Assembly (NCBI GenBank): GCA_004379135.1
Contig: NBNI01000007.1
Coordinates: 483,501 to 547,500, forward strand
Reading direction: 5' to 3'
Length of the DNA: 64,000 nucleotides
DNA from: Acidimicrobiales bacterium mtb01
GTDB taxonomy: Bacteria; Actinomycetota; Acidimicrobiia; Acidimicrobiales; Ilumatobacteraceae
Shown: piece by piece, positions 43,431-49,039 of the stretch
Position numbering within the stretch: position 1 is the first letter of the stretch
How the letters are laid out: every line of letters begins with the position of its first letter
The notes under the pieces: model-generated
What the model was told of the DNA's origin: nothing
Databases searched by the model: none
The model's input: only the letters and a program-made list of their open reading frames with translations
Made by a program: the position numbers and the translations under genes

Positions 43431-43472
43431 TGGCGGTTCCAAACCAATGGGGCATCCGCCCCTCATCTCCAT

Positions 43473-43480
43473 AGGGGGAG
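43473..43480 (+). promoter_or_regulatory. Ribosome-binding site of the substrate-binding protein
   Basis: AGGGGGAG ends 8 nt before the ATG at 43489 and decides between this start and an in-frame ATG at 43447. Confidence 0.65.
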
Positions 43481-43488
43481 AACCAAAC

Positions 43489-44865
43489 ATGCAGAAGACC
43501 CGCGCACGCCGCGTTGGGGCTCTCATTCTCGGTCTCGCACTCGTAGGCGCAGCCTGCGGTGGCGACGACGAGGGTGCAGACACCACCGCTGCTCCGGCTA
43601 CTGAAGCTCCTGCCACCGAGGCACCCGCTACCGAGGCTCCGGCCGCTGGTGGCGAGCTCGAGGGCATGAAGGGCACCACGCCCAAGGGTGCTGAGGTCAG
43701 CGAAGAGTGGCTCCAGAAGGTTTCGGACTTCTGGGTCTCGATCGGCAACGAGCCGCTCGAGGACTTCAACTACGCCGGTGAGGCTTACGACGCCGCCATC
43801 GTGATCGCACTCGCGGTCGAGAAGGCTGGCACCGACGGCGCCAAGCATGCTGACGAGATCGTCGGCATCACCAAGGACGGCGAGAAGTGCACCACCTTCG
43901 CCGACTGCTTGGCCATCATCCAGGCTGGTGGAGACCCCGACTATGACGGCATCTCCGGCCCGCACGAGTTCAACGGCAACGGCGAGCCCCTCCAGGGTTC
44001 GTACGCCATGCTCGAGTTCGGCGCGGACAACCGCATCACCGAAGAGTCGAACAACAACCTGATTCAGGCCGAGGCTCCCGAGTCGGCAATCGTCGCACTC
44101 GGCACCACCACCGCCACCCGTGAGGGCGACGGCCAGCTGAAGATCGGTTCGCTCCTGCCCGAGACCGGCAACCTCGCCTTCCTCGGAGCTCCGGAGTACG
44201 CCGGCCTCGAGTACGCGATCAACGAAATCAACGCCGCTGGTGGCGTTCTCGGCAAGGAAGTCCTGTACTCGCAGGGCGACTCTGGCGACACCACCACCGA
44301 CATCGCGTCGCAGACCGCCGACCGTCTCATCAGCGAGAACGTGGACGCCATCGTCGGCGCCGCTTCCTCGGGTGTGACCCTCACGGTCATCGACAAGATC
44401 ACCGCCGCTGGTATCACCATGTTCAGCCCGGCCAACACGAGCCCCAAGCTGAGCGACTACCCGGACGACAACCTGTACTTCCGTAACGCTCCGGCGGACG
44501 GTCTGCAGGGCGCCGTGGTGGCCAACCAGATCGTGGAAGACGGCAACGCTTCGGCCTACATCCTCAACCTCGACGACGCGTACGGCAACGGCATCGCCGC
44601 TGTCGTGAAGAACGTGCTCGAGGCCGCGGGTGTCGAGGTCAAGGGCGTCAAGGCCTACGACCCGGCTGCTGCGTCGTTCGACGCCGAAGTCGCCGACTTG
44701 GTCGCCGCCGATCCGGACGCAGTCGTTCTGATCTCGTTCGACGAAGGCAGCCGCATCCTGCGCGTTGCCGTCGAGAGCGGCATCGGTCCGAAGGTGAAGA
44801 ACTGGTACGGCACCGACGGCAACATGGGTAACGCACTCGGCGAGAACTTCGACGCCGGTAAGTGA
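43489..44865 (+). CDS. Branched-chain amino acid-type ABC substrate-binding lipoprotein, apparently circularly permuted
   Basis: A 458-aa exported lipoprotein: signal peptide with lipobox VGAAC (Cys23), then a Thr/Ala/Pro/Glu repeat linker (residues 31-55). The order of the binding domain is unusual. Residues 56-200 (GMKGTTPKG, NYAGEAYDAAIVIALAVEKA, CTTFADC with Cys134/Cys140, DYDGISGPHEFNGNGEP) resemble the C-terminal third of LivK-type proteins. Residues 214-458 (LKIGSLLPETGNLAFLG to NWYGTDGNMGNALGENFDAG) resemble their N-terminal two thirds. In usual homologues, ENFDAG is followed by LxGMKGTTP. It should bind a small amino-acid-like ligand for the LivFGMH proteins nearby. A strong ribosome-binding site and terminator flank it. 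Confidence 0.9.
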   Translation: MQKTRARRVGALILGLALVGAACGGDDEGADTTAAPATEAPATEAPATEAPAAGGELEGMKGTTPKGAEVSEEWLQKVSDFWVSIGNEPLEDFNYAGEAYDAAIVIALAVEKAGTDGAKHADEIVGITKDGEKCTTFADCLAIIQAGGDPDYDGISGPHEFNGNGEPLQGSYAMLEFGADNRITEESNNNLIQAEAPESAIVALGTTTATREGDGQLKIGSLLPETGNLAFLGAPEYAGLEYAINEINAAGGVLGKEVLYSQGDSGDTTTDIASQTADRLISENVDAIVGAASSGVTLTVIDKITAAGITMFSPANTSPKLSDYPDDNLYFRNAPADGLQGAVVANQIVEDGNASAYILNLDDAYGNGIAAVVKNVLEAAGVEVKGVKAYDPAAASFDAEVADLVAADPDAVVLISFDEGSRILRVAVESGIGPKVKNWYGTDGNMGNALGENFDAGK

Positions 44866-44891: not shown

Positions 44892-44923
44892 GAAGGGGCC
44901 CCCGGGAAACCGGGGGCCCCTTC
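44892..44923 (+). terminator. Strong hairpin terminator after the substrate-binding protein
   Basis: A perfect 14-bp stem, GAAGGGGCCCCCGG with its complement, closed by a GAAA loop and followed by CCTTTCC. It starts 26 nt after the stop. The tail is not very T-rich. A smaller hairpin (CAGTCGCT-CTG-AGCGATTG) lies between stop and terminator. Confidence 0.8.
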
Positions 44924-45077: not shown

Positions 45078-45809
45078 TCAGCCGCCGGTGGCGCGGGCGA
45101 GGGTTCCGAGATACAACTCGATCACGTTCGGATCGGCCAACAGATCGCGGCCCGAACCGGTATACGCGTTACGACCCTGGTCGAGCACGTAGCCGCGATG
45201 GACTACTTGCAAGCAGCGACGAGCGTTCTGTTCGACCATCAGGATCGCCACACCCGACTGATTGATCGTGCGGCAGTTGACGAACACCTCGTCCTGGAGC
45301 GCCGGCGACAAGCCGGCCGACGGCTCGTCGAGCAGAAGGATCGACGGCTTCATCATCAGCGCCCGGCCCATGGCCACCATCTGGCGCTCACCGCCCGACA
45401 AAGAACCCGCTCGCAACGACGCCCGTTCGCCCAGACGCGGGAACATGTCGACCACGTACTCGAAGCGTTCGGAGAACACCGACGGCTTCAGGAAGCAACC
45501 CATCTCGAGGTTCTCGCGAACCGTGAGACTCGGGAAGACGTTCTTGGTCTGCGGCACGTATCCGACACCCATGGCCACGAGTTCGTGGGCCTTGCGCCCC
45601 GTGATCTCCACCTCGTTGAGGAAGATCTGGCCCGAGCGCACCTTGCACTGTCCCAGTACGGCCTTCAGGAACGTCGACTTGCCGGCTCCGTTGGGACCGA
45701 TGATTCCGACGAACTCCCCCGCCGACACTTCGAGGTTGCAGCCGTTGAGGATGTTGACCTCGGGGATGTACCCGGCCACGAGTTCGGTGGCGTGGAGAAC
45801 CTTGGTCAT
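45078..45809 (-). CDS. livF: Branched-chain amino acid ABC transporter ATPase LivF
   Basis: A 243-aa ABC ATPase. Walker A is GIIGPNGAGKSTFLKAVLG, the signature SLSGGERQMVAMGRALMM, Walker B ILLLDEPSAGLSP, and the H-loop part reads ILMVEQNARRCL, where LivF proteins carry Q-N in place of the usual His. It powers uptake together with LivG. ATG 45809 overlaps the livG stop (ATGA). It is the last gene of livH-M-G-F. Confidence 0.95.
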   Translation of the reverse strand: MTKVLHATELVAGYIPEVNILNGCNLEVSAGEFVGIIGPNGAGKSTFLKAVLGQCKVRSGQIFLNEVEITGRKAHELVAMGVGYVPQTKNVFPSLTVRENLEMGCFLKPSVFSERFEYVVDMFPRLGERASLRAGSLSGGERQMVAMGRALMMKPSILLLDEPSAGLSPALQDEVFVNCRTINQSGVAILMVEQNARRCLQVVHRGYVLDQGRNAYTGSGRDLLADPNVIELYLGTLARATGG

Positions 45810-46681
45810 GCGCCCTCCTCCATGAGTGATCGTCCCTGGTGCGCGCCCAAGTAGGCGTCGATCACGGCCGGATTCTTCGAGATGTCGTCGGGTGTTCCCT
45901 CGGCGATCACTCGACCTTCGGCCATGACGATGACCCAATCGGAGACGTCGTGCACCATGTCCATGTCGTGCTCGACGAACAGCACGGTCATGCCCTCGTC
46001 GCGCAGACCGCGGATGTGGTCGTTCAGGCTCTGCTTCAGCGCCGGATTCACACCAGCCATCGGTTCATCGAGCATCACCAGGGTCGGATCGGTCATGAGT
46101 GCTCGAGCCATTTCCAGGAGCTTGCGCTGTCCTCCGGACAAGGCGCCGGCGAACTCGTCCCGCATGTGCGACAACTTGAAGCGCTCGAGAAGGGTTTCGG
46201 CCCGAGCCGTGATTTCCGCTTCTTGCTTCTTCCACGTGGCCGAGAAGAGGCCGTTCCACCACTTCTCGCCGCGCTGACCGGTGGCGCCGAGTCGCATGTT
46301 CTCGATCACGGTCAGCTTCGTGAGGCTCTTGGTGAGCTGGAACGTACGGACCATCCCGAGCGCGGCCGTCTTGTGCGACGCCACCTTGGCCATGTTTCGG
46401 CCGTCGAACGACCAGGTTCCGGTGGAGGGAGTGTCGAAGCCGGACAGGAGATTGAACAACGTGGTCTTGCCGGCCCCGTTGGGTCCGATGAGCGCCGTGA
46501 TCGAACCCCGCTGCACTTCGATGTGCTCGACATCGACGGCGACGATGCCACCGAACTCACGACGAACGCCGTCGGCAACCAGCATCGGATCGGGCTTGCG
46601 CGATCCGGGCACCTTGTCGCACCCGGCCAGCGCCGAGCGCGCCGCCTGGGCCAGGGGCGAATACGAACGCTCAGCGCCCAT
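45806..46681 (-). CDS. livG: Branched-chain amino acid ABC transporter ATPase LivG
   Basis: A 291-aa ABC ATPase. Walker A is ALIGPNGAGKTTLFNLLSG, signature GALSGGQRKLLEMARALM, Walker B LVMLDEPMAGVNP, H-loop LFVEHDMDMVH. An N-terminal extension of about 32 residues before the usual start (LVADGVRREFGG) contains a Cys and is not typical; a later start at its Met33 is possible. ATG 46681 overlaps the end of livM by 11 bp. It pairs with LivF on the inner membrane face. Confidence 0.93.
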   Translation of the reverse strand: MGAERSYSPLAQAARSALAGCDKVPGSRKPDPMLVADGVRREFGGIVAVDVEHIEVQRGSITALIGPNGAGKTTLFNLLSGFDTPSTGTWSFDGRNMAKVASHKTAALGMVRTFQLTKSLTKLTVIENMRLGATGQRGEKWWNGLFSATWKKQEAEITARAETLLERFKLSHMRDEFAGALSGGQRKLLEMARALMTDPTLVMLDEPMAGVNPALKQSLNDHIRGLRDEGMTVLFVEHDMDMVHDVSDWVIVMAEGRVIAEGTPDDISKNPAVIDAYLGAHQGRSLMEEGA

Positions 46682-47681
46682 CGAAGGCCATCTCCTTGCG
46701 GTCTCCGAACACACCCTGCGGTCGGAAGACCATCAGCAGGATGAGTGTCAATCCGATGAGGATGAAGTTGAGCGGGCCGACGTCGGTCGAATCCATCACC
46801 TGGAAGTTCCCGATACGGATCGGATCGTCGGCGACTTCACGCATGAAATTGTCGAGGAACGTGAAGATGCCCCAGAAGATCATCGGACCCACGATCGATC
46901 CCGACACCCGGGCCACGCCTCCGAGCACGAGGGCCGTGAGGATGTAGAACGTCACATCGCGGCTGTAGTTGTCGGGCTGCACCGCGGCGCGGTCGAGCGC
47001 GAAGATCATGCCGGAAATGGTTCCGAGGATGCCGCCGAGGATGAGCGACTGCATCTTGTACGAGTAGACGTTCTTGCCGAGCGAGCGAACCGCGTCTTCG
47101 TCCTCGCGAATGGCCTTGAGAACCCGCCCCCACGGGCTCTTCATCAGCTTGTACACGAAGAAGCCGAGCAGCGCGACCAGGAGCCAGCCGATGATGAGCG
47201 TCCATAGTTCGCGGCCGGTGAATCGGAAAGGTGAGAACCCGTACCTGGTGGCTTCGTCGATTCCGACCTTGTTGCCGAGATCACGGAACGACTGCGAGAA
47301 GTTGTTGATGCCATCACTGCCGCCGAAGTAGTGCTTGAAGCGAACCGACCTCACCACCAACCGGATGATCTCGGCGGCGGCGATCGTGACGATGGCGAGG
47401 TAGTCGGCCCGCAAACGCAGGGTCGGTATGCCCATGAGCAGACCGAGTCCGACCGAGAAAACGATTCCGAGCGGGATTCCCCACCACATGGAGATCTCGA
47501 AGTACTGAGCCGTCATGCCCAGGCCGTAGGCACCGCACGCCATGAACCCGGCCTGGCCGAAGTTCAACAGGCCCGTGTAACCGAACTGAACATTGAGACC
47601 CAGGGCGGCGATCGCGAAGTAGACGGCGTTGATACCGATGAAGCCCTTGAGGGTGTTCTCGAAGATGAGCGACCAATCCAT
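46671..47681 (-). CDS. livM: Branched-chain amino acid ABC transporter permease LivM
   Basis: A 336-aa polytopic membrane protein. It has the LivM wording GLNVQFGYTGLLNFGQAGFM in the first third and the cytoplasmic EAA-like loop SPWGRVLKAIREDEDAVRSLG that contacts the ATPases. The C-terminus VFRPQGVFGDRKEM is characteristic. It forms a heterodimeric channel with LivH. The start lies 2 bp after the livH stop. Confidence 0.95.
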   Translation of the reverse strand: MDWSLIFENTLKGFIGINAVYFAIAALGLNVQFGYTGLLNFGQAGFMACGAYGLGMTAQYFEISMWWGIPLGIVFSVGLGLLMGIPTLRLRADYLAIVTIAAAEIIRLVVRSVRFKHYFGGSDGINNFSQSFRDLGNKVGIDEATRYGFSPFRFTGRELWTLIIGWLLVALLGFFVYKLMKSPWGRVLKAIREDEDAVRSLGKNVYSYKMQSLILGGILGTISGMIFALDRAAVQPDNYSRDVTFYILTALVLGGVARVSGSIVGPMIFWGIFTFLDNFMREVADDPIRIGNFQVMDSTDVGPLNFILIGLTLILLMVFRPQGVFGDRKEMAFDGR

Positions 47682-47683
47682 CG

Positions 47684-49039
47684 CTACCCCACTCTCTGCG
47701 CTTTGCCGAGGATGCCCTGAGGACGGAACAAGAGCACGAGGATCAGGATCAAGAGGGCCGGCGTGGCCTTCAACTCGGTGGGCACCACGAGGCTCGCCAC
47801 TTCGACGAGGACGCCCACCACGAACCCGCCCACCAGCGCTCCGAACGCCGAACCGAGGCCGCCCAGGGTGATGCCCGCGAACATCAAGAAGAGCAGTCGC
47901 GCTCCCATGTCGAAGCTGACCTGCTCGTCGAGTCCGCGGAACACGCCGCCGGTGGCGGCCAGCGCCCCACCGAGGATCCAGACCAACTTGACCACTCGCT
48001 CCGAGTCGATGCCGGTGGCCGACGCGAGGTCGGGGTTGTCGGATACCGCGCGAGTGGCCTTGCCGAGACGCGTGTAGCGAAGCGCGAGGGCCACCATCAC
48101 GAGGATGAAGAGCGACAGTACGGACAGGGTGAAGTCACGCGGCGTGATCTGGACCGGCCCGATCTCCCACGACTTCTGCAAGGAGTAGTCGCCGTAGGGT
48201 CGCGTCCGGCTGTCGAAGCGCGACAGATAGAAGTTGCGCAGCAGAATCGACAGTCCGACCGTGAGCACCATCTGGGTCACCAAGCCGATCCCGCGCTTGC
48301 GCAGACGCGAGAAGATCCCGGCGTTGAGCGCCCAACCGAACAGACCACCGGCCACGATGCCCAGTGGTGCGGCGATGAGTATGTGGAATTTCCCGTCGTC
48401 CGTGACGCCGGGAAGAAAACTCAGGAAGCCGAGGAATGTCAGGCCGGTGATGTTGAAGATGAACGCGGCCAATCCTCCGAAGGTCACCATCTCGCCGTGA
48501 GCGAAGTTCGTGAGGCCGGTCGTGCCGAAGATCAGCGACAGGCCGACCGAACACATGGCCAGGACCAGGCCGAGCCGGATGCCGTTGACGAGACGCTGCG
48601 CCAGCTTTTCGCCGAGGTTCTGGGATCCTCCTTGAGACTCGCCGGTGAAGAAGTTCACGACCTTGGTGGAGGTGATGAAACTCTCGGCGGTCAAGGTCTG
48701 GGTGGCCGGAGACGTGTCGCTCAACGTCTGGCCGTCCGGAAGGGTGTCCTCGTCGAGAGTCACCGTGTAGTTGGCCTTGCCCGGCAGATCGATGACCACG
48801 ACACCCTTGTCGTCCGTCTCGCCCCGCCCGACCTCGTTGCCCTCTTCGTCGGTTACGACGATCACCACGCCCGCGATCGGCACGTTTGCGGTTTCGCCCC
48901 CCGCCCCGCGCGCCTGCTCCTTGACCTGGGCCCGGACGGACACACCGTCGGCCGACGCCGGAGTCGCCGCCCATCCCAGTACGGCCAAAAAGCCGAACAG
49001 GATGACGAGCAATCGTCTCCAGCGATTCGCCACGAACAC
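47684..49039 (-). CDS. livH: LivH-type permease fused to an exported beta-sandwich domain
   Basis: A 451-aa protein. The last 305 residues or so are an ordinary LivH permease (VGLSLIFGTTGLTNFAHGEM, RLGKATRAVSDNPDLASATG, ending LLFRPQGILGKAQ). In front sits a signal peptide-like segment (residues 7-30, LVILFGFLAVLGWAATPASA) and a domain of about 95 residues (IAGVVIVVTDEEGNEVGRGE, GVVVIDLPGKANYTVTL) like prealbumin or carboxypeptidase regulatory-like folds. The extra domain would face outside and could meet the binding lipoprotein. GTG 49039 was chosen just before the hydrophobic segment; upstream sequence is not protein-like. Confidence 0.88.
   Translation of the reverse strand: MFVANRWRRLLVILFGFLAVLGWAATPASADGVSVRAQVKEQARGAGGETANVPIAGVVIVVTDEEGNEVGRGETDDKGVVVIDLPGKANYTVTLDEDTLPDGQTLSDTSPATQTLTAESFITSTKVVNFFTGESQGGSQNLGEKLAQRLVNGIRLGLVLAMCSVGLSLIFGTTGLTNFAHGEMVTFGGLAAFIFNITGLTFLGFLSFLPGVTDDGKFHILIAAPLGIVAGGLFGWALNAGIFSRLRKRGIGLVTQMVLTVGLSILLRNFYLSRFDSRTRPYGDYSLQKSWEIGPVQITPRDFTLSVLSLFILVMVALALRYTRLGKATRAVSDNPDLASATGIDSERVVKLVWILGGALAATGGVFRGLDEQVSFDMGARLLFLMFAGITLGGLGSAFGALVGGFVVGVLVEVASLVVPTELKATPALLILILVLLFRPQGILGKAQRVG

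Follow-up and report, generated by a model that had tools for sequence, protein, structure and literature searches.

A circularly permuted LivK-type substrate-binding lipoprotein gene beside livHMGF in an Acidimicrobiales bacterium, with relatives cut at two sites

The window analyzed here is a 64,000-nucleotide stretch of contig NBNI01000007.1 from Acidimicrobiales bacterium mtb01. The open reading frame at positions 43489-44865 begins with ATG, ends with TGA, contains no internal stops, and encodes a protein of 458 amino acids. This protein is arranged as a lipoprotein signal, a linker, a HAAT/LivK C-terminal segment, a short new linker, and a HAAT/LivK N-terminal segment. The features at the locus, in window positions, are as follows.

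43473-43480, forward strand: Shine-Dalgarno sequence AGGGGGAG, preceding the start, read from the sequence
43489-44865, forward strand: circularly permuted HAAT/LivK-type substrate-binding lipoprotein, 458 aa plus stop (sequence, Pfam, relatives' profile)
43489-43554, forward strand: lipoprotein signal peptide, residues 1-22, with lipobox VGAAC, read from the sequence
43555-43650, forward strand: Cys23 and Thr/Pro/Ala/Glu-rich linker, residues 23-54, read from the sequence
43654-44082, forward strand: segment that ends ordinary relatives, approximately residues 56-198 (profile columns 284-412 at residues 55-188)
44083-44124, forward strand: new linker from the old C-terminus to the old N-terminus, approximately residues 199-212 (~14 residues), limits by eye
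44125-44862, forward strand: counterpart of the N-terminal segment of ordinary relatives, residues 213-458, with the cut ENFDAGK at its end (PF13458, profile, model)
44895-44920, forward strand: GC-rich, terminator-like inverted repeat between the convergent genes, read from the sequence without a terminator scan
45078-45938, reverse strand: livF-type ATPase (ORF as listed), PF00005; likewise located in relatives, whether permuted or ordinary
45806-46714, reverse strand: livG-type ATPase (ORF as listed), PF00005 and PF12399
46671-47681, reverse strand: livM-type permease, PF02653
47684-49414, reverse strand: livH-type permease with an N-terminal extension, likely start near 49039, PF02653 above cut-off

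The same eight bases, AGGGGGAG, stand ahead of every one of the 14 starts that were placed in a first set of relatives, window gene included. The lipobox cysteine is residue 23, and the cysteine pair C134/C140 in the first segment is invariant in sequence sets A1 and A3. The end of the first segment (~residue 198) was placed by eye against ordinary tails, and the start of the second (~213) against ordinary leads. The new linker between them has no counterpart in the ordinary tails displayed, and it differs among the three permuted groups described below. An earlier note on this stretch, made from the sequence alone, had claimed that the two segments are swapped within one unbroken frame, and this held, with coordinates and frame correct. 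Its segment limits (residues 56-200 and 217 onward) held approximately against Pfam and the ordinary-order profile. The ribosome-binding site and signal it described were also confirmed by reading the sequence, while the terminator amounts to the inverted repeat listed above. As a side observation, the 5' leader of the permuted livK gene (window 43449-43481) contains a small hairpin, GGGGC-ATCC-GCCCC, and a TCTCC able to pair with the Shine-Dalgarno sequence. Both are mostly retained across 16 aligned sequences and there are a few paired changes (4 cells versus a shuffle mean of 1.0), but the fold score is weak (z -1.44). The leader sequence TCTCCNNAGGGGGAGA occurs once in the genome.

A profile of 418 columns, made from 77 single relatives in ordinary order, matched the protein twice. 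Columns 284-412 matched residues 55-188 with 133.7 bits, and columns 24-281 matched residues 195-455 with 345.4 bits, a two-part match far above chance. PF13458 scored 126.3 bits against a curated cut-off of 31.7, yet matched only residues 217-452 (profile positions 2-237 of 343), so the start of the family sits in the middle of the protein. Read in the usual order the Pfam match is incomplete, with 106 profile positions unmatched at the protein end; the relatives' profile shows that the rest of the LivK-type family is present in swapped order. When solved structures were searched by phmmer with the protein in its actual order, the match reached only residues 7-230 of 4gnr, while a profile of the un-permuted window sequence and four ordinary relatives reached residues 7-303. 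Identity to ordinary relatives (L032, L033) is ~60% for one part and ~50% for the other, and the first part is 50% identical to the C part of an ordinary relative (L033; L197). Together, the two segments make up one complete LivK-type protein in swapped order, with nothing lost or doubled. Pfam covers only about half of the protein, and such proteins may consequently be annotated as partial.

An AlphaFold2 model built from 22 rows trimmed to the mature part had a pLDDT of 74.3 and a pTM of 0.69; an earlier model from 15 rows was poor (pLDDT 46.1) and was not used. Of the 50 structure matches displayed, 49 paired model residues 159/163 to 402/404 with a solved chain, the alignments covering 231-240 residues. 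The best match was 4zpj (Z 18.0, rmsd 3.1, 238 aligned), and 4gnr gave Z 17.2 and rmsd 3.2 over 234 aligned residues. Structure searches of this kind follow chain order, so they cover only ~160-404 and are blind to the first 160 residues of the model; the fold of the moved part therefore rests on sequence. We infer that the ~14-residue linker would join the old termini and so allow the protein to complete the two-lobed fold typical of type I binding proteins. The cut lies at what we take to be, from the lobe limits of LivJ/LivK, a position near the second lobe-to-lobe crossover. The new termini would then lie near this crossover, and the lipid anchor would attach there.

Comparison of the window gene with five relatives by the Nei-Gojobori method gave dN/dS values of 0.08-0.15, and the gene is therefore very likely functional. 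In all five comparisons dN was below dS in both parts, and in the new linker dN was near zero for the three closest relatives. A simple lipobox rule was satisfied by 38 of 40 proteins cut like the window protein (site I, below), by all 32 cut at the other site (site II), and by 75 of 77 single ordinary proteins. We take SSG (293-295), NT (316-317), and D443 to be at the LivJ/LivK ligand-contact positions. There is every indication that the gene is a functional, naturally permuted HAAT (LivJ/LivK) lipoprotein serving the adjacent LivHMGF importer, although function is inferred from conservation and there are no structure, binding, or transport data. The protein probably binds a branched-chain amino acid or a related one, also by inference and without an assay. 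The genome itself has 21 matches to the permease family and nine to PF13458, and the LivHMGF set here is thus one importer among several.

The window gene converges on livF of the livHMGF set. The same arrangement was found at other site I loci (e.g., L198, L204, L210), at site II loci (L205, L056, L057), and, with an ordinary-order livK, at L196, L197, L201, and L202. This sharing across permuted and ordinary loci points to a change of order in place. The permuted genes of genomes G523 and G754 are an exception, as they adjoin livH rather than livF, and the stretch examined showed no livHMGF gene at three G620-group loci. The N-terminal extension of LivH looks secreted and resembles a carboxypeptidase-regulatory domain, with PF13620 and bMG3 matching only below their cut-offs. 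A link between this extension and the permutation was suspected from tblastn matches in 11 of 11 permuted versus two of six ordinary loci. It was rejected, since the extension was present, as judged by eye, in all 53 LivH-bearing loci of either order (28 permuted, one gene counted twice, and 25 ordinary). LivH was missing from the stretch examined at five permuted loci and at one ordinary one.

The permuted order is widespread in other genomes. Among 24 genomes of the genus, counting the one analyzed here, 17 had a single match spanning both parts; of the remainder, three had only contig-end fragments and four only distant matches to the second part. Whole-span matches were seen in 16 of 347 genomes sampled from the order, 13 of 395 from the class, and seven of 396 from the phylum. 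In the order of G620, 47 of 200 genomes had a whole-span match to a permuted query, though not every match was examined gene by gene. Within the loci fetched there were 151 distinct homologues, 72 permuted and 79 ordinary, two of the latter being fused doubles. This is not a prevalence, as loci were picked by similarity to permuted queries. The permuted genes come from metagenome bins, from single-contig genomes, and from one isolate, Blastococcus xanthinilyticus DSM 46842. Whole-span matches were present in the single-contig genomes G620 and G826 (site II-type cut). Viral contigs were also scanned and yielded no remoter kin.

Some apparent permutants were discarded. Continuous matches in G421 and G359 from the class sample proved to be fused tandem ordinary units, and matches in Nonomuraea and Arthrobacter were pieces that had been joined, both being ordinary; the Arthrobacter livK (L212) is in ordinary order, split over two frames. 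Separately, three metagenome-bin records titled Bifidobacterium breve (L041, L042, L053) carry genes ~86% identical to the window gene; L053 also has the same neighbors as the window gene, and the titles are probably wrong. We also noted a fast-evolving site II permutant (L119-L141, L206, L248, L249) that belongs to one family, mostly one genus, with genomes of 5.4-9.2 Mb; the three of its loci that were inspected showed no livHMGF gene.

The earlier note had considered this a working permutant. That reading is supported by the 72 homologues, the exact cut, the low dN/dS in both parts, and the livHMGF neighborhood; the word working is inferred from conservation, without binding data. It had also held that the ordinary order at this locus in relatives would refute the permutation, and the ordinary order does occur there. 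We do not regard this as a refutation because the permuted order is found in many independently assembled genomes, including an isolate. Beyond what the note proposed, the permutation is probably an old, repeated event with two cut sites.

The 72 permuted genes fall into two types by the position of the cut. In 40, including the window gene, the cut is at site I, where the moved part starts with the strand LEGMKGTTP or the like and the protein ends with LGENFDAGK or the like. In the other 32, at site II, the start lies one element earlier (VYGTDGNMGN or the like) and the end is GIGPQR, AGVPIRH, or similar. On the profile, the median columns for site I rows are 281 for the end of the N part and 283 for the start of the C part; for site II both are 259, ~22 columns before the site I cut. 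Neither cut entails a lost or doubled stretch. Assignments follow a list made from printed chain ends, as the automatic assignment had misfiled at least three genes. By eye, the linkers from tail to head are alike within each of three groups and seemingly unrelated between them, and all three groups retain the native tail before the linker and the native lead after it.

These three groups appear in the main tree, which was built from 79 of 153 un-permuted rows with junction columns excluded and near copies thinned. It omits L006, the second frame of L078, and the permuted gene of L075, which were three long branches in an earlier quick tree, as well as the second frame of L193 and four tandem units. 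The main site I group contains 16 rows (100/98), and the ordinary row closest to it is L032 of G053 (96/90). The G523 and G754 rows, also cut at site I, form a set of four together with two ordinary rows (100/99) and have their own linker. The site II group has seven rows (100/99), with one ordinary row inside. That row (L103 / L202, from G687) could be a reversion to ordinary order or a misplaced row. Placing all permuted rows in one clade was rejected (p-AU 2.9e-6), as was placing all site I rows in one clade (p-AU 5.0e-6). Joining main site I with site II was not rejected (p-AU 0.117); this group was defined after the tree had been viewed, so the AU test is not clean. Nor was a site II clade without the ordinary row rejected (p-AU 0.118). 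In separate trees for each part, the 16 rows of the main site I group came together (support 95 in both), with the smallest starred set in the N-half tree holding these 16 and one ordinary row. The C-half tree alone had weak resolution, splitting site II and moving L032 elsewhere.

These trees support at least two origins of the permutation in the family. Three origins are suggested by the best tree and remain possible, given that the union of the two large groups was not rejected. A bolder reading, which we would neither favor nor dismiss, is that the permutation was fixed at least three times, with two cuts flanking the same short element near the lobe crossover. If true, this would be parallel evolution of topology, in which an anchored terminus at that position presumably alters opening or permease docking.

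The likeliest route to the swapped order, by inference, is permutation by duplication, because fused and tandem livK genes occur in the family. Under this model, livK would be duplicated in tandem and the two copies fused in frame; the N part of the first copy would then be lost behind the signal and linker, and the C part of the second copy would be lost as well. If the main site I and site II groups do have a common origin, both cuts would be explained, again by inference, by a doubled element that was shortened from one side in one group and from the other side in the other. L117 and L118, from two genomes in one family of the same order, are single proteins in which one complete LivK-type unit is fused to another behind it; as a point against the model, these fused doubles belong to a distant subgroup. 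Nonomuraea gerenzanensis (L211) has three tandem ordinary livK genes beside livHMGF, and L208 has two tandem permuted genes, the first truncated by the contig end. The L211 record, at 11.85 Mb, is listed as a plasmid in the collection. No half-trimmed intermediate (C-N-C or N-C-N) was found among the 151 homologues, chosen by similarity. The 68 downstream flanks searched likewise held no degenerate remnant of the missing C part; the only weak match there (E 0.004) was to the N part.

Several other explanations could be raised. An assembly or binning artifact, in which two livK pieces were misjoined, might be suspected given that the window genome is in seven contigs and many relatives are metagenome bins. 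It can be all but ruled out, as 72 distinct permuted genes share just two cut sites, the single-contig genomes G620 and G826 and the DSM isolate show whole-span matches, and the linkers compared by eye are alike within groups and different between them. The same can be said of the proposal that the first part is an unrelated domain fused to a truncated LivK. It has in its favor that Pfam recognizes only residues 217-452 and that the chain-order structure search matched only ~160-404. Against it, the first part matches the ordinary C-terminal columns at 133.7 bits, is 50% identical to the ordinary C part (L033, L197), and gives a tree that gathers the same 16 main site I rows as the tree of the other part (95 each).

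Two further alternatives concern how the order came about. Split proteins could reassemble at the lobe crossover, and the cut lies near it, so genes that had once separated might have re-fused in the other order. We consider fission and fusion unlikely: tandem and fused whole copies were observed, and the only broken livK noticed was that of Arthrobacter (L212), although split genes were not deliberately searched for. Less likely still is a single permutation followed by reversions to ordinary order and a shift of the cut. Its support comes from the main site I and site II clade that was not rejected (p-AU 0.117), and from the ordinary L103 inside the site II group, where site II alone was also not rejected (p-AU 0.118). 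It is opposed by the rejection of an all-permuted clade (2.9e-6) and of an all-site-I clade (5.0e-6), and by the G523/G754 pair, which groups with two ordinary rows (100/99), has its own linker, and lies beside livH.

Compared with known systems, the window protein shares homologous parts, a lipoprotein form, and LivHMGF-type neighbors with ordinary HAAT/LivJ-LivK proteins (PF13458 Peripla_BP_6; 4gnr, 1usg, 2lbp, 3ipc), but it differs in its swapped parts, new tail-to-head linker, and relocated termini. No report of a permuted LivK/HAAT protein was found in the open-access literature searched, which is weak evidence since most subscription journals were outside its scope. Natural permutants themselves are known. 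TpMglB-2 (Tp0684) of Treponema pallidum is a naturally permuted glucose-binding lipoprotein whose binding and shape change were shown experimentally, and for which the name Type Ic / Cluster Bc was proposed (PMC4990184). Only its first three N-lobe strands are at the C-terminus, a fourth crossover is added, and its last 70-100 residues were unmatched to homologues (PMC4990184). The moved part aligned at only 13% identity, and its origin from another gene was left open (PMC4990184). The window protein likewise is a natural circular permutation of a type I binding lipoprotein. However, TpMglB-2 belongs to the MglB, glucose family, whereas the window protein is a HAAT protein with ~245 residues at the end, a cut near column 282 of 418, and parts ~60% and ~50% identical to ordinary relatives, and its nearest kin in the tree are ordinary HAAT proteins. 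What this analysis adds is a second cut site among the permuted relatives and at least two origins.

Permutation by duplication has been described for saposin/swaposin and DNA methyltransferases, and it predicts tandem and fused copies (PMC3320104). The LivK family resembles these systems in having such copies and a cut without loss, but differs in that no half-trimmed intermediate was found. Engineered sensors made from permuted or inserted binding proteins are also rearranged at chosen points; those are man-made, while the window protein is natural, and evolution, it seems, has repeated what protein engineers do deliberately. For TpMglB-2, the permuted topology was suggested to be an adaptation to tethering (PMC4990184). 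Tethering alone does not explain the swap here because ordinary and permuted forms nearly all have a lipobox. A natural experiment is offered by permutants whose close relatives have the ordinary order at this locus, with both orders at ~50-60% identity, two cuts, and two to three origins, allowing pairwise comparison of folding, hinge motion, and anchoring.
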